IMG/VR virus record: IMGVR_UViG_3300029286_002355
Location: 1 to 64,000 of that record
DNA length: 64,000 bases
Strand: one strand, 5' to 3'
Source: a virus
The notes beneath the pieces were generated by a model that saw nothing but the letters and a program-made list of their open reading frames with translations, ran no database searches and had not been told where the DNA came from. The translations under genes and the position numbers were made by a program. Within the stretch, counting starts at the first letter, position 1. Each line of letters starts with the position of its first letter. Positions 11,855 through 57,363 of the stretch are shown here, in pieces.

Positions 11855-12916
11855 TTAGTTAACAAACGCCTCATTACATTTCGGCATTTGATTTTCTAAT
11901 CTGAGGATATCAGTGTTCCTCTTAGTATTATCTCTGTCTAATACTAAATGACCATTGCCTTCAGTGTTATTCAATAATTCAAATGCCGCTATATTAAAAG
12001 CGGCATTTGAATCCGCATGGTCAGCGTGTCCACAACTAACACATTTGAATACTTTTCCATTCCTGTTTCCTATAACTCCACATCTACTACATTTTTGACT
12101 AGTATATGCAGGATTGATATAGACAACTGGTATTCCTAATATTTTGGATTTGTATTCTATCATGGTTTTAAGCTGATAGAAACTCCAACTATTTAAGGAG
12201 TACTTGAATGACGGTTGTGTTTTCTTATTTCTCTTTTCTCTAATTTGCGTTAAGTCTTCCAACTTAATTCCACAATTATTCTTTTGAGCAACTTGAACTA
12301 TCTTTCTACTAATCTCATGGTTCAAATTCTTAATTCTGTTTTGTTCTCTTCTCTTGATTTTCTTTAGTTGATATTTTGCTCCTTTCTTTTGTAGTTTTGT
12401 TCTCAGGTTCTTATATTTTAAGTGAAGATGATTTGCTTCTTTTCCTAATTTGATAACCTTTTTGGTTTTAGGAATTGCTACAACTGCACAATGACCAGTA
12501 GTATTTAAGTCCACTCCGATATAATCTTTAACTTTCATTTCCTGCTTGTTAGGCACTTCGCAGGAAATATAGCAATAGGTATTATCAACCTCTATCTGAT
12601 TGATTTTAGTGAAGTTGTTTGGAAATTGATATTGAAGCTCTAATTTAATTACTGAAACTTTGATTGTCTTAGTTTCTTGATTTACTTTAATACCTTGGTT
12701 TGGAATGGTTAGTTTAACAGATTTGATTGACTTACACTTTTTGTTCTTTGAATACTTTTTTAGGATTTGGTTAGATATTTGTGACTTTAGACCGAAGTGT
12801 TTTACGTCCTTAGAACTTCTAGATTTTGTTTTGATAGCAAAGGAAGCAATTTTTCTAGCAATATTCAATTCGCTAGAAAAATCTTTGTCGTGCTTCACTT
12901 TGTAGGTTAATATCAT
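11855..12916 (-). CDS. tnpB: TnpB RNA-guided nuclease (IS200/IS605)
   Basis: 353 residues. The three RuvC acidic residues are visible: D in GVDLNTTGH, E in IKLEDLTQIR, D in HADHADSNAA. The Cys4 zinc finger (CSRC, CVSC) is intact. TnpB uses a guide RNA made from the element right end to cut DNA next to a short motif, favouring element retention. It looks active. Confidence 0.92.
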   Translation of the reverse strand: MILTYKVKHDKDFSSELNIARKIASFAIKTKSRSSKDVKHFGLKSQISNQILKKYSKNKKCKSIKSVKLTIPNQGIKVNQETKTIKVSVIKLELQYQFPNNFTKINQIEVDNTYCYISCEVPNKQEMKVKDYIGVDLNTTGHCAVVAIPKTKKVIKLGKEANHLHLKYKNLRTKLQKKGAKYQLKKIKRREQNRIKNLNHEISRKIVQVAQKNNCGIKLEDLTQIREKRNKKTQPSFKYSLNSWSFYQLKTMIEYKSKILGIPVVYINPAYTSQKCSRCGVIGNRNGKVFKCVSCGHADHADSNAAFNIAAFELLNNTEGNGHLVLDRDNTKRNTDILRLENQMPKCNEAFVN

Positions 12917-13326
12917 TTGTTCTTTTGGTCTTCTATATATTTCTTAACAACCGCTAAAGTTACTGCTCCAACTGTTGAAATGAATCTGGAATTAGTCCAA
13001 AGAGTAGGAAGTCTTGATTTCAGTTCTGGAAATTGGTTTCTAAGTTCATGAGAAGTATAACCTTTGATTTTAGAAACCACCTTGTATATTCCTTCTTTTG
13101 GATTAGTACTAATTATCAAGTGAACGTGGTCTAATAGCACTTCCATGTCTAGCACCTTGAACTTATATTCTTCTTGTTTTGAAAGAATCAATTCCTTAAG
13201 TCGTTTTGCAATATCTTCTGTCAAAACCTTTCTTCTATATTTAGGACAGAAGATAACGTGGTATTGACAAGAGTAGATGAAATCTCCATCTGACTCATAC
13301 TTCTTTTCGCTTTGTTGTATTTCCAT
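12913..13326 (-). CDS. tnpA: TnpA Y1 transposase (IS200/IS605)
   Basis: 137 residues, a normal size. The HUH metal motif (DHVHLII) and the catalytic tyrosine near the C-terminus (VVKKYIEDQ) are present, so single-strand peel-and-paste transposition is plausible. TnpB starts within its stop codon. Confidence 0.93.
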   Translation of the reverse strand: MEIQQSEKKYESDGDFIYSCQYHVIFCPKYRRKVLTEDIAKRLKELILSKQEEYKFKVLDMEVLLDHVHLIISTNPKEGIYKVVSKIKGYTSHELRNQFPELKSRLPTLWTNSRFISTVGAVTLAVVKKYIEDQKNK

Positions 13327-20354: not shown

Positions 20355-20798
20355 TTAACAATGGCAATCGTTAATTAAAACATTTTTATAGTTTGTATTT
20401 AGAAACACTACGCCACTACCCACAAATGGCTCTATTATCCTCTTTGCGGAAATTGGAAATTGGGCAATCAAAAATGGCAATATCTTTCCTTTGCCCCCTG
20501 CCCATTTTAAAAAACTATGTTTGTAATTTTTGGTTTTTTTTATTCGATTCGTTTTTGAGGGGTTGATGTAGTCAAGCTCAAACCCATCATGGTAATCTGA
20601 GGACTTTAACACCTTACCAGACGGAATCAATCTGTCGTTAATAAACATCAGTATTTTGTCTTTTCTTAACCTAGAAGCAGACAGCATACAGCCTAATCCA
20701 TTCCTAAAAACAAGTTGACTATCTTCAATTTTAAACAAGCCCCTACAATGTCCGTCAATTATTCTATTCAATTCGTCAACGTAACTTGCAATAATCAT
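20355..20798 (-). pseudogene. Truncated Dam-type adenine methyltransferase
   Basis: 147 residues. Residues 95-145 match the N-terminus of D12/Dam methylases: SFLKWAGGKGKILPFL (motif X/SAM loop) and IEPFVGSGVVFLN (motif I), then INDCHC where the family continues with ND(I/L)N. The frame stops there, so the catalytic DPPY and target domain are missing. The first 90 residues are an extra domain. It has a good promoter and ribosome site, so a short peptide could still be made. Confidence 0.75.
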
Positions 20799-21060: not shown

Positions 21061-21726
21061 TTACAGAGTCTTACTACAGAGTCTTATAACGTTGTCATAA
21101 ATGGACTGAGCAATATCATCCTTTGATCTTAACACTTCTTCCCAATCCGCCATTAACAATACACCAACATGTTCCCCACTCTTTTCAATAGCCTTCTTAT
21201 CATTTGCAAAAACCATGTCCAATTTATTATCTTCCCACAACTTTTTGGCAATTTCCACCATCTCTTTCGAAGACTTGCCACTTGTAAACTTAAACCCCAC
21301 CAAAATAGCATCCTTATTCCATTTTCTGAAATTGGAAATAACCTTGGGCGTTTTACGGATTGTCTTACGCATATGCTCAATCAATGCATCAGACGAATCA
21401 CTACTAACCTTTACCGCCCCCTCATAATCAAAAGTAAAATCAGAAATTGCCATTGGATGAATCACTACATCCGCTTGAGGAACCAAAGACTTCATAGCCT
21501 CCATTACCGATTCCGTATTGGTAACTTTTACAAAAGAATAGCAATAAAGATCGGACGGCTTTACGGCAGATTCAGGAGCTACATAAGTAACGTTATGCCC
21601 ATGTTCTAGGAATGTCTGGGCAATTAAAGCTCCCAGTCTTCCTGTAGAAATATTCGTGAGAACCCTTATGTCGTCTATGTGCTCAGCCGTTCCACCACTA
21701 GTAACTACTACGTTTAATTTCTTCAT
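21061..21726 (-). CDS. coaB: Phosphopantothenate-cysteine ligase (CoaB) domain protein
   Basis: 221 residues matching the CoaB half of bacterial CoaBC, which joins 4'-phosphopantothenate and cysteine: TSGGTAEHIDDIR, NISTGRLG (for NxSSGxxG), AISDF in place of AAVADY, and VGFKFTS. Length fits a single CoaB domain. In most bacteria CoaB is fused to CoaC; here they are separate and divided by a homing endonuclease. Start overlaps that gene by 4 nt. Confidence 0.85.
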   Translation of the reverse strand: MKKLNVVVTSGGTAEHIDDIRVLTNISTGRLGALIAQTFLEHGHNVTYVAPESAVKPSDLYCYSFVKVTNTESVMEAMKSLVPQADVVIHPMAISDFTFDYEGAVKVSSDSSDALIEHMRKTIRKTPKVISNFRKWNKDAILVGFKFTSGKSSKEMVEIAKKLWEDNKLDMVFANDKKAIEKSGEHVGVLLMADWEEVLRSKDDIAQSIYDNVIRLCSKTL

Positions 21727-23084
21727 GCGAATGCCTCCTTTGCTATTTCTATATTTTTATCTTCCCCATCTTCTAACCATAGTACAATTACCTTGAACCC
21801 TTTTTTCGTGGCAAATCTATTTTTTTCTTCATCAAAGCTACTTTTAACATCCGCAGCTTCTTTTGTCCAAGGGTGCCTCCATGAATCCCACCTATTATAA
21901 TCGCTAGACTTCCATACAGGGTTAGGATGAACGTGCTCTCCGTTAAATTCCAATATAACCTTTTTTGATTTAACTACAAAATCGTAAACGTAAAATTTTT
22001 CTTTGTCGCCTAAAAACCATTCTTGAGAACCGCTTATGCCAAAGAATATATCGTCTCTTCCAATACCGTTTTTCCTTAAATACTTATATAGTGGAATAAA
22101 AACCCTAAGAGAATATTTAGACGCCATCCTGTTACGAGACTTTAACTGTTCCATCCAGTTTATATATCTTTTCTTACCTTCATTTTTCCCATACTTTTTA
22201 GTGAGATATTCTAGCGTATGCGAATAGGCTATGGTTTTGCATTTTTCTTTATGTCTTATGTGCCCTTCTTTTTCCCCATATTTTTCTACATACCACTTCA
22301 AAGACCCCTTTTCTCTAGCTTTGGTTAAATATTGAGACCATTTTAGTAGCCCATCCTCTAAACCGTATAATGCAACACACTTTTCGTAAGAATAACTTAC
22401 TTTTTTGCATAAACTTTCATATTTCTTTTTACCTTCTTTCTTGCCATATTTCGCTTCAAACTTTTTTAAACTAAACCCACTATTTTTTTTAAATTCTTCC
22501 CAACGCTTCGAGCCATTTTTTTCCCCATACAGTCCTATATAGTTTTGCAATGTATTTTTCCATGTTTTTTGCTCGGCGGATTTTTCGGCAGCTTCTTTTT
22601 CCCCATACCCTCGCTTAATCCAAAACTCAGGATTATGTGGAGAAAACTCTTTTTTAAATTTTGGATCGGAATTTAGTTTTTCAATAAGTATTTTTCTTGA
22701 ATCGTTTTGAAACTTTTCTTTAAGCAATTGGGCTTCTTTTTTTGTATAGCCTTTTCTTAACCAATATTGAAGGGACATTTTTCCACGTCCAGATTGTAAT
22801 TTGGATATTTTAGTTTTGGCGTCAGCTATGTCCCATCCTCTTATCGTCCAATATTCTGTTGATAATTTAGATTTAATACAGAAATATTTACTCCTAATAA
22901 GCCTGAGCAATCTTACAATTCCAATAGAATTAAAGCCTGATAAAATTTCTTCGAAAACCCCCATAAGGCTTGGCGTCATCTTTTTTATGTCTACTATGTG
23001 TTTATGACGTATAAACTCAAAAAGCTCTTGGGGACTACTAACTGTACCTAAAATTTCATTATATTTACATATTTTCATAATCAC
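21723..23084 (-). CDS. Homing endonuclease with YGxxxGxxR repeats and a VSR-like nuclease domain
   Basis: 453 residues. Five or more repeats of the form YG(E/K)(K/N)xGxxR(W/Y) in residues 190-330 look like small DNA-binding modules. The C-terminal 110 residues have FYVYDFVVKSKKVILEFNGEHVHPNP and KGFKVIVLWLED, the EDxHD/VSR-like homing nuclease core. It sits between CoaB and CoaC region genes. Confidence 0.75.
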   Translation of the reverse strand: MIMKICKYNEILGTVSSPQELFEFIRHKHIVDIKKMTPSLMGVFEEILSGFNSIGIVRLLRLIRSKYFCIKSKLSTEYWTIRGWDIADAKTKISKLQSGRGKMSLQYWLRKGYTKKEAQLLKEKFQNDSRKILIEKLNSDPKFKKEFSPHNPEFWIKRGYGEKEAAEKSAEQKTWKNTLQNYIGLYGEKNGSKRWEEFKKNSGFSLKKFEAKYGKKEGKKKYESLCKKVSYSYEKCVALYGLEDGLLKWSQYLTKAREKGSLKWYVEKYGEKEGHIRHKEKCKTIAYSHTLEYLTKKYGKNEGKKRYINWMEQLKSRNRMASKYSLRVFIPLYKYLRKNGIGRDDIFFGISGSQEWFLGDKEKFYVYDFVVKSKKVILEFNGEHVHPNPVWKSSDYNRWDSWRHPWTKEAADVKSSFDEEKNRFATKKGFKVIVLWLEDGEDKNIEIAKEAFA

Positions 23085-27019: not shown

Positions 27020-28150
27020 TTACTCCTTTCCATATGTTAGTTGAAACCTTCGAGAAATTGCCTTAATAGAAAGCCTTCCACCCCTAAGAGCATAACTTGT
27101 CATTTCCTTTACGGGCCTGATGACTACCCCTTCCGCAGGAGTCCCATTCGCATAGTTTTGAGCATCAGCAAATTCAACTAGTTCATCCACGGTCTTCCAT
27201 TTGAAAACTCCAACATAAATAACAGGAACCCTAGGAATATTATGAGTATCGCAGAAAGAAACAAAATCAGCATAGTCAAGATACCTGTGTCCCAAGATGC
27301 TAAATACATCAAAAGCCGCAATTTGAACATCTTTCATTCCCAGTTTGTTTCCTTGGACTCCATTGCCGTAAATTTCACTTTGTAATGCGCTATTTGTTCC
27401 TTTAAGGATATCAATAATGCCATACTTTTTAGTCATGTTCCAATAGGTGTTACCCTCTGTATCCTTTAGCTCAATGTTTCTAGAACATACACCAAAAATA
27501 TGACCTTCGGCAATGTTTTCTGTCTTGCTGTAGGCGGTAAAGCTCGTTCCGTCTATTTTTGTGGTCACATAGACTTCTACTCCCTGAAGCTCTTCAATGG
27601 TTCCGGGATAGGCTTGCACTCGATGTACGTCTGTTTTAATAAGAAATCCGGGGAAGTTCCCTTTCATCAATCCCTTAAGTTCGGCGGGAATATCGGGAGT
27701 ATATTGTGTAACCCCAAAGAACTCTCCGACATCATCATCAACAGAATGAACAGCCTTAGTGATTCCAAGCTTGATTTTGGCTTCCATGTAGGCACAATAT
27801 TTATCATTGTCAATAATAGAAAGGGGCATAGCCAAACCTTGCGAAACTTGGCCCCTCAACTTTACGGTTTTCAATCTAATAGGTTTATCGGGACGGTTCT
27901 TATCAACAAGAAACTCATTCCAAGTATCTTTTTTAAGAATGGAATCTACCTCAAAATAAACGCAAAGATCGCCAACATTGAATTCACCTTTCTTGACTAC
28001 AACTTTCCATCCAAGAACAGAAGCGCATTCAATCTTGTCGGCATTCGGGATAGGATCAAGGGCAGTAACCTTCTGAATGGTTGCGAGATGACGAACCACT
28101 TCAACCTTCTCTTCCACTTTTTCTTTTACTTCTGTAGTATTCTCGTCCAT
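27020..28150 (-). CDS. RNA ligase, Rnl5/DraRnl-like
   Basis: 376 residues. An N-terminal OB-like domain (about 20-130: VTALDPIPNADKIECASVLGW) precedes the nucleotidyltransferase domain with motif I TKIDGTS (lysine nucleophile), FGVCSRNIELKD, EIYGNGVQGN (motif III area), AEGVVIRP (motif IV) and SIKAIS (motif V). This N-terminal OB plus ligase order matches the Deinococcus RNA ligase family, which seals 3'-OH/5'-P RNA nicks. Part of the RNA repair set. Confidence 0.85.
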   Translation of the reverse strand: MDENTTEVKEKVEEKVEVVRHLATIQKVTALDPIPNADKIECASVLGWKVVVKKGEFNVGDLCVYFEVDSILKKDTWNEFLVDKNRPDKPIRLKTVKLRGQVSQGLAMPLSIIDNDKYCAYMEAKIKLGITKAVHSVDDDVGEFFGVTQYTPDIPAELKGLMKGNFPGFLIKTDVHRVQAYPGTIEELQGVEVYVTTKIDGTSFTAYSKTENIAEGHIFGVCSRNIELKDTEGNTYWNMTKKYGIIDILKGTNSALQSEIYGNGVQGNKLGMKDVQIAAFDVFSILGHRYLDYADFVSFCDTHNIPRVPVIYVGVFKWKTVDELVEFADAQNYANGTPAEGVVIRPVKEMTSYALRGGRLSIKAISRRFQLTYGKE

Positions 28151-28938: not shown

Positions 28939-30308
28939 ACGAGCGGAAACCCCGATATCTTTAGTGTCGGGGAGGTAAGCGAGTTACTAACTTACTTTCC
29001 ACTACTCCTTTCTTTAGCCATTATTATACATTAATATCTCCCAAATTCAAGCAAAAAGAAATATTAAAATAATAGAAGGAATTTGTATAATAATTAAAGA
29101 AAGTAATATATATGAAAACATACAATGTTCAACTTGAGTTTCAGAGCGAAGAAGACAAAGATCTTCTTCTCGCTACCTTTGAAGTTCATAAGAATATTTG
29201 GAATTATACCTCTAAATACGTCTTTGCCCATAAACTGAAGGCTTGGGGCAAAGACGTTCACGAAGCTACTTACCACAAATGCAGAAAGAAATTCCCTACC
29301 TCTCCTTCCCAAATTATAATTAGAGCAAGAGAGGATGTTGTAGCTACTTTCAAAACCATAAAGTCTAACAATCATAAGATTGAAGAATGTCCAGTTAAAA
29401 CTCATTATTCAATAAGATTGGACAAGAGGCTTTATACTTTACAAAGGGATTCAATCAAACTAACTACAGTAGAAAAAAGGATAATTTGTAAACTCAAACT
29501 CTATAAGAAACTTGAAGAGTTATTTAAGTATGAGGTTAAAGATCCATTAATTTTTGTTAGAAACAATCAGATTTATTTAGCCTTAACCTTTGATACTCCT
29601 GAGCCTATATTCAATCCCAATCAATGCGTTGGAATTGATTTGGGATTGAATCGTATTGCAGTAACTTCAGAAGGTAAAATAATTTCAGGTAGTAATTACA
29701 TTAGAACCAAAAGAAAAATCAGATATTTAAAGAGATGTTTACAACGCAAGAAAAAATTAAGAGTTAAGAAATCTGATTCAGCAAGAAAACATTTGAGAAA
29801 ACTAAAAAGAAAAGAACTCAATTATTCCAAAAATTATATCCACCATTTGGCTAATGAACTACTTAAAACTAATTGTAATACTTTAGTTTTAGAAGATCTT
29901 AGTTCCCTCAAAGACCATAGCAAAGGAAGATTACAAAATAATAAATTATCTCAAGTTCCATTTTTCCAGTTACTAACAATATTAAAATACAAGGCACAAG
30001 CTCTAGGTAAAAGAGTAGAAACTGTTAATCCTGCTTATACCTCTAAAGATGACTATAGAGGAATTGAAAAAGGCATAAGAAAAGGATGTAGGTATTATGC
30101 ATCAGATAAGGTAGTTCTTGATGCAGACCTCAACGCTTCCATAAATATTGGGAAGCGTTGGGGTGATAAAAATAAACTTCCTGTTTCGTTTGTAGTCCCC
30201 TTAGACGGGAAATACAAACTAAATGGGCAGGCTGTGTGTCAACCAGCCAATCGTTTAGTGCCTTTGACTAGACAAGCCCAGACATCTTTAGTGTCTGGGT
30301 AGTTGACA
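28939..30308 (+). mobile_element. tnpB-only IS200/IS605-type element
   Basis: The left end (from about 28939, ACGAGCGGAAACCCC) forms the stem CCCCGATA/TGTCGGGG (28950-28957, 28965-28972) around loop TCTTTAG. The right end forms CCCAGACA/TGTCTGGG (30277-30284, 30292-30299) around the same loop, then TAGTT. There is no tnpA. The left-end sequence is shared with the element at 40029. Confidence 0.8.
29112..30302 (+). CDS. tnpB: TnpB, subfamily without the Cys4 finger
   Basis: 396 residues. RuvC residues are in GIDLGLNRIAV, LVLEDLSSLK and LDADLNASINI. Where the zinc finger normally lies it has YTSKDDYRGIEKGIRKGCRYYASDK, a loop with one Cys, a known variant of OrfB proteins. It probably relies on a transposase elsewhere for movement. 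It reads against all surrounding genes. Confidence 0.88.
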   Translation: MKTYNVQLEFQSEEDKDLLLATFEVHKNIWNYTSKYVFAHKLKAWGKDVHEATYHKCRKKFPTSPSQIIIRAREDVVATFKTIKSNNHKIEECPVKTHYSIRLDKRLYTLQRDSIKLTTVEKRIICKLKLYKKLEELFKYEVKDPLIFVRNNQIYLALTFDTPEPIFNPNQCVGIDLGLNRIAVTSEGKIISGSNYIRTKRKIRYLKRCLQRKKKLRVKKSDSARKHLRKLKRKELNYSKNYIHHLANELLKTNCNTLVLEDLSSLKDHSKGRLQNNKLSQVPFFQLLTILKYKAQALGKRVETVNPAYTSKDDYRGIEKGIRKGCRYYASDKVVLDADLNASINIGKRWGDKNKLPVSFVVPLDGKYKLNGQAVCQPANRLVPLTRQAQTSLVSG

Positions 30309-38154: not shown

Positions 38155-38369
38155 TTTTTCACATCCTCACGGCTAATCAGTATTCGCATGGCTATATTAC
38201 AGGCAAATCCTATGCTCAACAGAACCCAATCAACCCAAGTCAGGTATTTAAACATAAGAAGATTGTAAGGTTTATCCCATACGTGACAGGTACTGGTTAC
38301 GGTTCCTACCAATACAAAAATACCAGTCAAAACAAGTAATATTTCTATCCATATATCAGATTTTCTCAT
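38151..38369 (-). CDS. Small membrane protein, 72 aa
   Basis: Two hydrophobic helices (7-28 and 43-63). Overlaps both neighbours by 4 nt, so coupled to rtcB. Confidence 0.6.
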   Translation of the reverse strand: MRKSDIWIEILLVLTGIFVLVGTVTSTCHVWDKPYNLLMFKYLTWVDWVLLSIGFACNIAMRILISREDVKK

Positions 38370-39652
38370 TCTTCACCTGCATCTTTCCAAGAAACAAGAG
38401 GAAAAAGTTTGAACAATGGCAATACCAAATCGGCCTCATTAGAAATTACGTCTTCGATATCCTTATAGGCTTGAGGAGCTTCACTAAAATCCATCATACC
38501 CAAGTCCTTTCCCTTACGAGATACAGCCCTGCCATATTTAGTATGATAAACGCCTTCCATTGCTTTTTCTATTTCCTTGATCTTTTCAGGAGTATTGTAT
38601 TCTTGATTAAAGGCATTACGGCCCATTCTACGACCTGCCCCATGAGAACAAGATGACAATGATTCTTTTTGCCCACGTCCCCTTACGATGTAGGAAGCGG
38701 TGCCTTGAGAACCGGGTATGATTCCAATGGTCTTTTCACTTGCCAATGTAGCTCCCTTACGATGAACCCAAATATTTCTTCCAAAATGGTTTTCTATAGA
38801 GGCATAGTTATGATGAATGTTGATGAGATCCTTTACCCCCACTATTTCTCCCGAAGTGTTTTGCATATTAGGGAAGTAATGAAGCAGATTGTCCCAAATA
38901 TCATCCAACATAGCTTTGCGGTTATAGAAGGCAAAGTTAAGGCACATATTCATCCATCCCAAATAAGCCTTTCCTTCTTGGGAAGTAACAGGCAAGAAAG
39001 GAACAGAAGATTGCGAATACCACTCATGATTTATTTTTGCAGCAACATCATTAAAGTGATCGCATACTTTCTTACCTATATTACGGGAGCCAGAATGAAC
39101 CATAACCCAAATGTTTCCATTTTCGTCATATTGGAGTTCTATGAAGTGGTTGCCGCCTCCCAAGGTTCCCATTTGAGAAAAGAAAGCATCGGGTTTAACA
39201 ATCACGGGAACGGAAAGAACATCCAATCTATTTTCTCCCATGCAGAGATGTTTTGTGAGAGCATAATTAATCTTGTCACTGTATTTCTGTTCCATTATCT
39301 TTCGGCGTTGGTCTGTGTTATGCGAAAAGCCCATAGGAATAGCTCGTTCAATAGCATGATGAAGGATTTCTTCTTTCCCTTTAATATCTTGAACAGTAAG
39401 GTTGGTACGGAAAGCACCAAGGCCGCAGCCGATATCGACACCCACGAAGTTAGGAACAACAACACTAGTGCATGCAACAACTCCACCAATTGGCATGCTC
39501 ATTCCCTGATGACAGTCCGGCATCAAAGCAAAATGCTCGACAAATGGGAGTTTAGCAATGGCCTCTATCTGTTCAATAGCTCCCGCCTCAATATCGGAAC
39601 ACCAAGAAAAAACGGGCTTTCCATTCGATAACTTTATTTCCATAGTTTTCAT
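38366..39652 (-). CDS. rtcB: RNA-splicing ligase RtcB
   Basis: 428 residues. Metal-binding GVDIGCGLGAFRT, GGGNHFIEL, HSGSRNIGK and the SCSHGAGRRMGR segment with the guanylylated histidine are present. RtcB joins 2',3'-cyclic phosphate or 3'-phosphate ends to 5'-OH, the ends left by anticodon nucleases and toxins. No archease gene is seen nearby. ATG is six bases after the -10 box, so its mRNA should be leaderless. Confidence 0.93.
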   Translation of the reverse strand: MKTMEIKLSNGKPVFSWCSDIEAGAIEQIEAIAKLPFVEHFALMPDCHQGMSMPIGGVVACTSVVVPNFVGVDIGCGLGAFRTNLTVQDIKGKEEILHHAIERAIPMGFSHNTDQRRKIMEQKYSDKINYALTKHLCMGENRLDVLSVPVIVKPDAFFSQMGTLGGGNHFIELQYDENGNIWVMVHSGSRNIGKKVCDHFNDVAAKINHEWYSQSSVPFLPVTSQEGKAYLGWMNMCLNFAFYNRKAMLDDIWDNLLHYFPNMQNTSGEIVGVKDLINIHHNYASIENHFGRNIWVHRKGATLASEKTIGIIPGSQGTASYIVRGRGQKESLSSCSHGAGRRMGRNAFNQEYNTPEKIKEIEKAMEGVYHTKYGRAVSRKGKDLGMMDFSEAPQAYKDIEDVISNEADLVLPLFKLFPLVSWKDAGEE

Positions 39653-40028: not shown

Positions 40029-41405
40029 ACGAGCGGAAACCCCGACATCTTTAGTGTGGGGGAGGTAAGCGAGTTACTATATCCACTCATCTCCTTTCTT
40101 TAACTTTCTACTATTATACATCTTTAATTCCTGAAATGCAAGAAAATAATCAAAGAAATAAAGAGGAAAAGACTAAATAGTTATAGAAGAACATAATATA
40201 TGAATATCTTAACGTATAATATAAAACTTGAACCGAAAGATAAGGAAGAATATGATCTTCTTTATTCTACACTACTTGAACACCAGAAGGTTTGGAATTA
40301 TATGTCAGAATACGTTTTTAAGTCAAAGAACGTAGATAAACGATTAATCCACGACAAAAATTACCATAAGTGCAGAAAACTGTTTCCCGATTGTCCTTCC
40401 CAAATAATAATTAGAGCCAAGGATTCTGTATTTTCTACCTATAAAACTATTCAATCTAATCATCACAAATTAGAAAAGCCAGCAAAACAAGAAAATCTCT
40501 CTGTTAGGCTTGACAAAAGAATATATACGTTCTTTCCTAATAATAAAATCAAACTAACTACGACAGGAAAAAGAATAATGTGCTCTTACGTTCCCTATTC
40601 TAAATTTCAAGAGATGTTCAATAGATATGCCGTATGTGATCCACTTTTGTTTTTTAAAGACAATCAGTTTTGGCTTTCTGTTTCTTTTGAGGTTAATACC
40701 CCAACTCTTATAGAAAATAGCTGTATTGGAGTGGATTTAGGTATTAAACGGTTTGCAACAACCTCTGAGGGAATTTCTTTTATAGATAGAACGTTCCTTA
40801 AAGAAAAAAGAAAATTGAGATATCTAAAGCGAATCTTACAGTCAAAATCCAAATCTACCTTTTCTCGTTCTGCTCAAAGAAAACTAAAGAACCTTAAGAA
40901 AAGAGAACAAAATAAGAATAAAAATCAAACTCATCTCATTGCTAACAAAATTCTAAACACTAAGTCTAATGTTATTGTTATGGAAGATTTAAGTGGAATT
41001 AAATCTTCTAATAAAGGTAAGAAATTTAATAACAGACAATCTCAAGTTCCTTATTTTGATTTAAGAAGGATACTAACATACAAGGCACTATTGCAAGGAA
41101 AAACAATAGTAACGGTTGACCCTGCTTATACCTCTAAAGATGACTATACTGGTCTTGAACGAGGAATAAGAAGTGGATGCAGATATTACACCTCAGACGG
41201 CAGAGTTTATGATGCAGATTGGAATGCTGCTATAAATATTGCTCAACGTTATTCTATAAGAAAAAGAGTAAAAGGTGTAAAACTCCCTGTTTCGTTTAAT
41301 ATACCTATTGATGGTAAATTAAACCTTATAGGCAAGCCACATCAACTGGCTAATCGTGAGATAAGGTCTCGCAAACCCAATGATCTTTAGTCATTGGGTA
41401 GTTGA
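40029..41405 (+). mobile_element. tnpB-only IS200/IS605-type element, second copy of the 28.9 kb type
   Basis: Left end ACGAGCGGAAACCCC with stem CCCCGACA and loop TCTTTAG as in the element at 28939. Right end stem CCCAATGA/TCATTGGG (41377-41384, 41392-41399) with the same loop, then TAGTT. The right end abuts the stop codon of the phosphoesterase gene at 41406. Confidence 0.8.
40200..41390 (+). CDS. tnpB: TnpB, subfamily without the Cys4 finger
   Basis: 396 residues, same length and architecture as the protein at 29112 but clearly diverged. RuvC residues in GVDLGIKRFAT, IVMEDLSGIK and YDADWNAAINI; YTSKDDYTGLERGIRSGCRYY replaces the zinc finger. The stop lies in the right-end hairpin loop. 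Confidence 0.88.
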   Translation: MNILTYNIKLEPKDKEEYDLLYSTLLEHQKVWNYMSEYVFKSKNVDKRLIHDKNYHKCRKLFPDCPSQIIIRAKDSVFSTYKTIQSNHHKLEKPAKQENLSVRLDKRIYTFFPNNKIKLTTTGKRIMCSYVPYSKFQEMFNRYAVCDPLLFFKDNQFWLSVSFEVNTPTLIENSCIGVDLGIKRFATTSEGISFIDRTFLKEKRKLRYLKRILQSKSKSTFSRSAQRKLKNLKKREQNKNKNQTHLIANKILNTKSNVIVMEDLSGIKSSNKGKKFNNRQSQVPYFDLRRILTYKALLQGKTIVTVDPAYTSKDDYTGLERGIRSGCRYYTSDGRVYDADWNAAINIAQRYSIRKRVKGVKLPVSFNIPIDGKLNLIGKPHQLANREIRSRKPNDL

Positions 41406-54254: not shown

Positions 54255-54497
54255 TCATTTTTCATAAGTTACTGTTCTTTTTCTTTTGGGAACAGGAGCC
54301 GAAGCTTTGGGTTCTTTACACTCGTCTTGATCTAGCGGAACCACGTAAGTATCAACTCCGCAACCGCAACCGCATGTAAAATGAATTATTTTACCTTTAA
54401 TAATTCCTCTTTTGATTCTGGAATTGAGAACTGAGTCTATCCACTTGGACTCTCTCATTTGTTTCCCGCTTAAGAAATACTTATCCGATCTTTTCAT
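54255..54497 (-). CDS. Small basic protein with CGCGC motif, 80 aa
   Basis: Start at ATG 54497 (GGAGGAAG) inside the ligase gene end. FTCGCGCGVDTY is a likely metal-binding loop; the tail is Pro/Lys-rich. Confidence 0.6.
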   Translation of the reverse strand: MKRSDKYFLSGKQMRESKWIDSVLNSRIKRGIIKGKIIHFTCGCGCGVDTYVVPLDQDECKEPKASAPVPKRKRTVTYEK

Positions 54498-55485
54498 CTT
54501 CCTCCTCCACAACAACATGAAACTTATCTATGAATTTCTGTTTAAGATTAATTCCTATAGAAATCTTTTTTGCCCCAACATTCTTAAGCTCTTCCTCCAT
54601 GGTTGAGCCATTCTTGCGAAGAGAGAAGATGATTCCCTTTTCGAAAGCATAAACGGTTTTAGGTATAATGGTAAGCGCAAACTCCTTCTGCTCCTTGATA
54701 TCCTTATGATCTTGGTAAACAGAAGCAATACGGTTTTTGATTTCCGTATAAATACCATCCACAAAAGTAAAGTACGGTTCATCTTCGGGAAAATAACGAA
54801 GATATTCAGGGTGTTCATTTCCCATAATAAGATTTAGGACATTCTTGGGCGAAATATTTCCGTTCTCCCTCATGTGGGCTACGGCAACAAAAGAAGGGTT
54901 CTTTGTTTTAACTCTATGATGAGACCCATTTTCATTTTCAATTACAACCACCACTCCTTCTTGAAGCGTTGGAAAAGATTCTACCAACTTAAATAGCTCG
55001 GCAAAATCCTTACAAACGAAAATTTCTGGGCGATCAACTTCCATCATCCTTGCAACATTATTTAGCTCCGTATTGGAAAGTTCCCGATAGTTGTTGCGCT
55101 CAAGATTGTTCCTGCCACCAATAAGTGTAATTTTGTTTTCCGTATAGGGAGAAACAACCCGGTTTTCTGGCCCCGTAAGCTCGAATACAAGAGTAAATTC
55201 TTTCATTTCTAAAAGTGTAAGAAACTCCTTAAGACCTGTTTTCTTTTCAGCATCCCAAAATACTTCGGCAAAAGTTCTTCCTAGATTGGTTTGTCCCTCT
55301 GCGAAAGCCATTTTTCGAGTAGCTACGCACCACTTCTCTCCGTCAAAATAAAGCGAAAGCAGAGAGTTATGAACCAGCATATCGTTTGCAAAATAATTTT
55401 CGGTAGTAGTTTGCAAATCATAGCGTTTTGACTTACACTCTACCTTCTTAATCAATTTTATTTTGGCGAGCATAGGTTTACCCAT
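54481..55485 (-). CDS. C-terminal intein half plus RNA ligase C-terminal part
   Basis: 334 residues. Residues 1-40 are a split-intein C-half ending in YFANDMLVHN, followed by Ser+1. The extein goes on SLLSLYFDGEKW with ligase motifs III (FELTGPENRVVSPY), IV (EGVVVV) and V (RVKTKNPS) of the T4 Rnl1 group. The N-half is encoded at 56725-57363. Splicing would give motif I KLDGSL and a 407-residue enzyme. AAAGGGG precedes ATG and a separate promoter lies at 55513-55540. Confidence 0.9.
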   Translation of the reverse strand: MGKPMLAKIKLIKKVECKSKRYDLQTTTENYFANDMLVHNSLLSLYFDGEKWCVATRKMAFAEGQTNLGRTFAEVFWDAEKKTGLKEFLTLLEMKEFTLVFELTGPENRVVSPYTENKITLIGGRNNLERNNYRELSNTELNNVARMMEVDRPEIFVCKDFAELFKLVESFPTLQEGVVVVIENENGSHHRVKTKNPSFVAVAHMRENGNISPKNVLNLIMGNEHPEYLRYFPEDEPYFTFVDGIYTEIKNRIASVYQDHKDIKEQKEFALTIIPKTVYAFEKGIIFSLRKNGSTMEEELKNVGAKKISIGINLKQKFIDKFHVVVEEEDEKIG

Positions 55486-55512
55486 AAAGCCCCTTTCTCA
55501 ATTGTTTGCGCT

Positions 55513-55540
55513 ATCATAACATTTTTATTTAATAAGGCAA
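55513..55540 (-). promoter_or_regulatory. Sigma70-like promoter for the ligase C-half
   Basis: TTGCCT (55540-55535), 16-nt spacer, TATGAT (55518-55513). It overlaps the end of the endonuclease frame. Confidence 0.6.
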
Positions 55541-56677
55541 GATAAATCTTCTGTTAACAAAAGTTTTTCTGCCACCAACTTTTCTAGCTCTTCGTCATTG
55601 CATCTTCTAATTTCGTTTTCCCAAACATAAACCACAAAATATCCCATTTTTTCTGCCATGTTCTTTTTTTTCAAATCCCTATTCCATAGTTCTTGTGCTA
55701 ATATTTTATTACCAAACGGAAACGGCAACATATCATTATGCTTGTATTTGTCGGGATTGGCATGATAAAAGTCTCCGTTCACCTCCAACAAAATCTTGCC
55801 AATCCTAAAATCAAACTGCTTAAATTTCAAATAAAAAGAATGAGTATATTCTAGCCCCCATTTTAATAATATGTTGTTTACTCTACCCTCTATGCTCGAT
55901 ACCGTTACGTGGTGCAATCTTGACAAAATTTTGCTTTTTTCTTCATCTGATAGTTTTTCCCATCTACGCTTACATCCATCACTGAATTCATTTCTTTTCT
56001 TCGGGCAATTCTTTCCAGTATTTTTTAACAACTTCACTTTTTTCTTTTCTTTTCTTTTTCGTCTGACAAGGCCAATCGGTCCCATAATTTTTCCTTGAGG
56101 TCGCCACTCGTTTCTTTTCTATATCTCCCCATTTTTCATCGTTAAATTTCAATCGTGCTTCTGATATTTTTTCTGGATTACAAACCCTTTTTACACCATA
56201 TCTTCCCATAATTGTTGAGGTTATTTTTTCTTTTATTACTTCTATCTGAAATACATTATTTACGCCATATCTTTCTTGAACGGTTTTGTTTCTTTTGTCA
56301 TAAGCATCTGTTCCCCTACTCAACACGTTTATTTTCCCATATTTTTTTAAGCAAGTAGTTTCAAATTTTTTCTTTCGTTGTGGTAAACTGGAACTAACTT
56401 TAATACTTCTAGTCTCGAAGCCATAATATTTTAAAAGGAAAATTGTTTCTTTGAACCATAATCCAAATTCGTTTTTTATGTCTGGTAAACTTTTTTGTTT
56501 TACCACGTATTCTTCTTCTAGCTTTTCTTTGGTCGCTATAAGTGGGAAATTATATGCCAAGAAACTTGCTTTTATATCATTTTTGCCAAGATCTCCCCTG
56601 CTTTCGCACTTATATATGTGATGGCCCTTTATTTCCCCAAATGATAATTCTTTATAACAAAATGGACATTTTCTCAT
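55525..56677 (-). pseudogene. VSR/EDxHD-like homing endonuclease between intein halves, frameshifted
   Basis: Two overlapping frames together make one protein of about 380 residues. The first (56677-55988) has an N-terminal CPFC zinc site and KKYGKINVLSRG and RYGVNNVFQ-type DNA-binding repeats. The second has FDFRIGKILLEVNGDFYHANP and KMGYFVVYVWENE, the VSR-like catalytic core. The frame changes by one base in an A-rich run near 55990. This is the endonuclease type found inside fractured intein genes. Confidence 0.75.
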
Positions 56678-56724
56678 TTTTTATCCCCAAGACAAACATG
56701 ACCCACTCATATTTGTCGTGTATA

Positions 56725-57363
56725 TTAGTTCGATAGAAAAACAGAATCTCCTTCTTTTAATTCTTTTACTTTTCTATAGCACTTAAATTCTGGTAGCCAT
56801 ACATAATGTTCGCTTGTTAGTTTAATGGTTTTCCCGTTTTCTAGTTCTATTTCAAACCAATCGTCATTATTGTTTTTAATAGAAAACGCAAGAACATCAG
56901 CCCAAACAGTTTCCCCTGTATCGGTATCATACGCCAATATCTCTACCTTTTTTTTAGCCTCGCATATTTCTTTTATTGTTTTGTCACCGTCACGAGTTGT
57001 TATGAGCACATCTTCGGAACAACACCCATCTAGCTTGTTTTGAATCAACGCATCATTGAGACAAAGCTTCCATGTTCTAGGTTCATCAAAACTAGCTTCA
57101 CGTTGATTCCCTGAAAGCTTATCCTTTTCTTCGATCCCTTCTGCAAAATTATAAAAACGAACGAAGGACATTGCCATAACTTCCCAAGTTCCTTTGCGCA
57201 GGATTAGTCCACGGCATTCATCGCAGATTGGATTGAACTTAGGGCTATCAATTTGCGAGTAATTTAGTGTTACTCTGTCGGGATATTCTTTGACTTCAAT
57301 ATGGAATTCGTCTTGGAGTTTTTGAAGACCGTTTTTTATTAGATATTCTTGGACGTTAAGCAT
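56725..57363 (-). CDS. RNA ligase N-terminal part plus N-terminal intein half
   Basis: 212 residues from ATG 57363 (AAGGATACT before it; a longer frame to 57441 would overlap the upstream gene by 71 nt). Residues 1-113 are the N-terminal region of a T4 Rnl1-like ligase (CDECRGLILRKGTWEVMAM, FVRFYNFAEG) ending exactly at motif I NKLDG. Residue C114 opens the intein (CCSEDVLITTRDG), with block B TSEHYVW, and the frame stops after EGDSVFLSN. Confidence 0.9.
   Translation of the reverse strand: MLNVQEYLIKNGLQKLQDEFHIEVKEYPDRVTLNYSQIDSPKFNPICDECRGLILRKGTWEVMAMSFVRFYNFAEGIEEKDKLSGNQREASFDEPRTWKLCLNDALIQNKLDGCCSEDVLITTRDGDKTIKEICEAKKKVEILAYDTDTGETVWADVLAFSIKNNNDDWFEIELENGKTIKLTSEHYVWLPEFKCYRKVKELKEGDSVFLSN

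Follow-up and report, generated by a model that had tools for sequence, protein, structure and literature searches.

The gene described here lies in a stretch of viral DNA of 64,000 nucleotides (positions 1 to 64,000 of the IMG/VR virus record IMGVR_UViG_3300029286_002355, hereafter the window) and codes for a T4 RNA ligase 1 (Rnl1)-type RNA ligase that is broken into two separate open reading frames (ORFs), each carrying one fragment of a split intein, with an endonuclease gene between them. The two halves very probably (we put it at about 0.88) trans-splice through this intein to give a single Rnl1-type ligase of 407 amino acids, in a locus that would constitute a homing element. The case seems to join a type of fractured gene that is already known; more surprising is the apparently conserved position of such inteins at the active site of several ligase families.

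Organization of the fractured ligase gene

The first ORF (56725-57363, minus strand, 212 amino acids) begins with 113 residues of ligase (MLNVQEYL...IQNKLDG), the last of which are the nucleotidyltransferase motif I, KLDG, and continues with 99 residues (CCSEDVLITT...SVFLSN) up to its stop codon. The second (54481-55485, minus strand, 334 amino acids) opens with 40 residues (MGKPMLAKIK...YFANDMLVHN), followed by 294 residues of ligase that start with SLLSLYFDG. Joining the exteins gives the 407-residue ligase and restores KLDGSL, with zero residues gained or lost in a gapless alignment at KxDG↓S (the arrow marks the break) with nine phage Rnl1 proteins. Columns 17-107 of the RNA ligase profile phrog_562 fall on the N-half and columns 107-362 on the C-half, so that the break falls at a single profile column. 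The initial annotation, which had described an N-half running as an Rnl1-type ligase to KLDG and then giving Cys1 and intein blocks A and B, a C-half in which an intein end (here with the HN↓S border, block G) precedes the rest of the ligase, and an intein seated inside the catalytic motif, was accurate in all these points. A conserved enzyme is thus found in two ORFs with a complementary intein fragment on each, as in fractured genes. The starts of the ORFs are preceded by ribosome-binding-site-like sequences read by eye (AAGGATACT for the N-half, GAAAGGGG for the C-half and GGGG for the endonuclease), and the N-half, the endonuclease and the C-half are therefore each likely to be a cistron of their own.

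Table 1. Parts of the fractured Rnl1 locus (window positions)
Feature	Positions	Strand	Basis
N-extein, Rnl1 RNA ligase residues 1-113, ending in motif I KLDG	57025..57363	-	translation, profiles, alignment
Intein N-fragment, 99 amino acids, CCSEDV...SVFLSN; stop codon 56725-56727	56728..57024	-	translation, profiles
Vsr-like homing endonuclease gene (putative), 5' part, first frame, 229 amino acids	55988..56677	-	profiles, model of intact homologues
Vsr-like endonuclease gene, 3' part, next frame, with Vsr-like catalytic domain	55525..56085	-	profiles, model
Intein C-fragment, 40 amino acids, MGKPML...YFANDMLVHN	55366..55485	-	translation, Pfam
C-extein, 294 remaining Rnl1 residues from Ser+1; stop codon 54481-54483	54484..55365	-	translation, profiles, alignment

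Both ligase ORFs are open and carry all the nucleotidyltransferase motifs, which follow motif I (KLDGS) in the expected order in the joined ligase (FELTGPENRVV, EGVVVV and K-x-K). T4 Rnl1 is the top match of the C-half in both sequence and fold, the predicted structure of this half (mean predicted local distance difference test score, pLDDT, 71) matching it best at 5e-9. In 113 of 113 distinct intact Rnl1 ORFs, KxDG is followed by Ser (89) or Thr (24). The spliced product is predicted to act as an RNA ligase of the T4 RNA ligase 1 family (PF09511, phrog_562), whose Rnl1 motifs it shares, although the T4 gene is single and uninterrupted and the present one is in two halves. An uninterrupted RNA ligase (PF09414 with a PHA02142 OB domain; window 27020-28150, minus strand) and an RtcB-like protein (window 38366-39652, minus strand) are also encoded in the phage record, which has three RNA ligases in total, the split Rnl1 included.

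Intein fragments and putative trans-splicing

The two fragments contain the residues of a Class 1 intein, namely Cys1 (CCSED, block A), TxxH in block B (TSEH) and the terminal HN↓S (block G), and Cys1, TxxH, YD and HN↓S are conserved across relatives. The N-half matches TIGR01445 (intein_Nterm) at 2.4e-8, exceeding its cut-off, and the Pfam family Intein_splicing matches the N-half at 1.2e-8 and the C-half at 6.6e-4, with scores that are a little or well under the Pfam gathering score. The block-F position varies across Rnl1 inteins (N, H, E, K, Q or G), so that a histidine there is not diagnostic in this family; in Class 1 (Cys1) inteins in general the block-F histidine is common, though not universal. 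The initial annotation had looked to gp41-1-like split inteins for a profile comparison, and in this it was mistaken, since no gp41-1 entry was matched and the closest solved intein for both halves is NrdJ-1 (PDB 8ubs; E 1.6e-6 for the N-half and 1.1e-3 for the C-half), which differs in its host, a ribonucleotide reductase, and whose own sequence was no part of the intein tree described below. The intein search of the phage record matched only the two halves of the Rnl1 intein.

The splicing pathway can be proposed from these residues. The two ORFs would be translated separately, and the intein fragments would bind each other and fold into one HINT domain, in which Cys1 would attack the G-C peptide bond, Ser+1 would receive the N-extein and the terminal Asn would cyclise, leaving KLDG joined to SLLS. 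Motif I would be regenerated in this way within a single T4 Rnl1-type ligase. Because each half holds only part of the active site, the unspliced ligase should be inactive, and the split intein would be kept because the ligase needs splicing.

The endonuclease gene and putative homing

The Vsr-like homing endonuclease gene announced between the halves by the initial annotation is present with its conserved residues, but it is not intact. The two overlapping frames belong to one gene (they cover positions 5-168 and 167-304 of the model made from intact homologues) that is broken by one frameshift, which may be either a mutation or a sequence error. The residues D, E-x-x-GD-x-x-H and D of the Vsr-like (EDxHD) domain are kept in the family alignment, and TIGR00632 (vsr) is matched at E 1.1e-3, far under its curated cut-off. 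The gene resembles those of EDxHD endonucleases such as I-Bth0305I in that a long DNA-binding region is linked to the Vsr-like catalytic domain; I-Bth0305I is treated among group I intron endonucleases (PMC3943268), whereas the present gene is frameshifted and sits between the halves of an intein. A group I intron or other structured RNA was considered as the cause of the break and rejected, as the window has no Rfam match.

In alleles with an intact ligase gene, this free-standing endonuclease would make its cut at or close to the codons of motif I, and the damage would then be repaired by copying in the fractured allele together with its endonuclease gene. Since that gene is frameshifted, homing is probably decaying in the present phage.

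A 453-amino acid endonuclease-like ORF elsewhere in the window (21723-23084, minus strand) matches phrog_22677, as does the 3' endonuclease part of the Rnl1 locus, and lies between coaC- and coaB-like genes. These were considered as a second fractured gene and rejected, because both look complete and separate.

The fractured Rnl1 family in IMG/VR

Scans of IMG/VR with single proteins of the window gave at most one relative, and alignment-based profiles were needed to recover the family. Profile searches with the ligase halves, together with loci fetched earlier and the window, gave 174 loci that match the ligase (several share a contig), of which 161 have a contiguous Rnl1 across the site and thus represent intact alleles without insertion (empty sites); five further distinct genes are split exactly as KxDG↓C...HN↓S. 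Searches with the intein fragments extended the Rnl1 set to the 19 distinct inteins at the KxDG↓S site that were used in the tree, 18 of them split (the window included) and one contiguous (L203). The fractured-gene arrangement first read from the window alone therefore recurs, broken at the identical residue, in at least 17 further phage contigs, all distinct and from many metagenomes; an accident of assembly is for this reason very unlikely, and so is a pseudogene. A scan of genome contigs had as its sole match a contig from an archaeon, where the intein is part of one long frame.

The endonuclease gene between the Rnl1 halves is intact in L154, L169, L133 and others, frameshifted in the window and in L187, reduced to a remnant in L189 and L131/L132, and gone from L168/L182 and L188. 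In two loci (L205:4266-5303(-) and L233:3425-4441(-)) the ligase halves are separated by a Vsr-like ORF that runs on the other strand. The contiguous form, L203:3692-5251(+), is an ORF of 520 amino acids with a cis mini-intein at the KLDG↓S site and no endonuclease; its predicted structure (mean pLDDT 75) matches T4 Rnl1 at 2.8e-13 and, best among inteins, NrdJ-1 at 6e-3. These natural stages (endonuclease intact, broken, remnant or lost, and the contiguous form) could help to explain how a split intein comes about, how it is maintained and how it may become fused again.

Selection on the intein halves and alternative explanations

Strong purifying selection acts on both intein halves and speaks indirectly for splicing; it is judged from the ratio of nonsynonymous to synonymous substitution rates (dN/dS), which is about 0.06 for the N-terminal (IntN) and about 0.09 for the C-terminal (IntC) half when three independent pairs of relatives are pooled, with dS near saturation in most pairs. 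Between L188, where the endonuclease gene is lost, and L189, where a remnant is left, dN/dS is 0.06 and 0.05 for the intein halves, part of which divergence may predate the loss of the endonuclease. The near saturation of dS weighs against the trans-splicing interpretation, as do the Glu found in block F, where some relatives have His, the moderate confidence of the C-half model and the disorder of the lone C-intein.

The two halves might instead stay unspliced and associate non-covalently as a working two-subunit ligase, with the intein fragments as inert tails. A gene in pieces without splicing is on record for a phage ribonucleotide reductase, which an endonuclease gene divides (Friedrich 2007, as far as PMC10448857 reports it), but useless tails should erode, and in 18 distinct split Rnl1 loci the fragments keep the splicing residues and exact borders and are more conserved than the exteins; besides, L203 has retained the same intein within a single frame, and its conservation there must be due to excision. 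We consider a two-subunit ligase of this kind quite improbable. The frameshifted endonuclease gene, the Glu in block F and the presence of two further RNA ligases in the phage would all suit a decaying, non-functional remnant in which neither ligase nor intein works any longer. This too has a slim chance of being right, given that both ligase ORFs are open with all their motifs and that purifying selection on both intein halves persists in relatives without the endonuclease gene. The frameshift might also be a sign, like the one contiguous relative, that a contiguous ligase gene with its intein had been split by an assembly or sequencing error, such as a chimeric insertion of the endonuclease gene; but ribosome-binding-site-like sequences precede the start codons, and in all those other contigs and metagenomes the gene is split alike, each half with its own start and stop, which makes such an error extremely unlikely. 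Trans-splicing of two separately encoded ligase halves is hence the explanation that we prefer.

Related inteins in other ligases

Inteins related to the Rnl1 one were also found in PF09414 RNA ligases (families assigned by Pfam), with the break at KxHG↓S, KxHG↓T or KxDG↓S, in ATP-dependent DNA ligases, at KxDG↓CR or KxDG↓SR, and in one NAD-dependent DNA ligase, at KIDG↓C. A few are offset by a few residues (KYDGEN↓C, Q↓CKxD), and four lie elsewhere in PF09414 ligases, at KTDExR↓C. In the PF09414-ligase split inteins L245, L249, L252, L271 and L292 (Thr+1), TGNN replaces the TxxH of block B, which leaves them with no block-B histidine. The collection provides natural candidate split inteins with Ser, Cys or Thr at +1 that may serve protein ligation.

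A tree of 65 concatenated inteins separated the ligase inteins from the ribonucleotide-reductase split inteins of IMG/VR (support 100/100) and grouped them largely by host enzyme, the Rnl1 inteins forming one group with weak support (80/74). L203 was placed among the split inteins, its exact place not being fixed (p 0.24 in the approximately unbiased test for a position outside the other Rnl1 inteins), and this nested place, favoured by the tree though not forced, suggests that it is a re-fusion of a split intein. There is perhaps an even chance that these inteins represent a lineage of split inteins with Vsr-like endonucleases that specialised on motif I of covalent nucleotidyltransferases, moved among Rnl1, PF09414, ATP-dependent DNA and NAD-dependent ligases, mostly at or within a few residues of KxDG or KxHG, and after loss of the endonuclease re-fused at least once to a cis mini-intein (L203). 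Because the searches started from ligase inteins and took in the best 80 of 350 IntC relatives, the apparent specialisation on ligases may be partly a matter of sampling. Repeated insertion at the catalytic lysine motif in several families of ligase lends itself to testing whether an endonuclease and its intein follow the site that is most conserved in an enzyme superfamily.

A related split intein also breaks a ribonucleotide reductase (L251:34-3060(+)), at NPC↓SEI, and the endonuclease-like ORF that separates the halves of this enzyme is a different one.

Relation to known fractured genes

The split Rnl1 would extend fractured genes to enzymes of RNA repair. The 2009 abstract of Dassa et al. 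reportedly counts eight kinds of enzyme for the synthesis and repair of DNA. Full-text searches, which did not extend to that paper, gave no description of an RNA-ligase intein in the literature, though this does not prove that there is none. Genes fractured by split inteins together with Vsr-like endonucleases have been published (Dassa 2009, as far as it is cited in PMC12350094 and PMC10448857), and the present locus shares with them a conserved phage enzyme that a split intein halves, and a free-standing Vsr/EDxHD-like endonuclease gene between the two parts; it differs in its host, an RNA ligase, and in the break within the catalytic lysine motif.

Other features of the phage record

An N-terminal fragment of a D12-class adenine methyltransferase (window 20355-20798, minus strand) ends abruptly and is probably a truncated remnant; it was rejected as a second fractured gene, as intein sequence was not found there. 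Several transposon genes are present in this one phage record, with ORFs like TnpA/TnpB of the IS200/IS605 type, recognised by eye from their translations, at window positions 11855-13326 (minus strand), 29112-30302 (plus strand) and 40200-41390 (plus strand).
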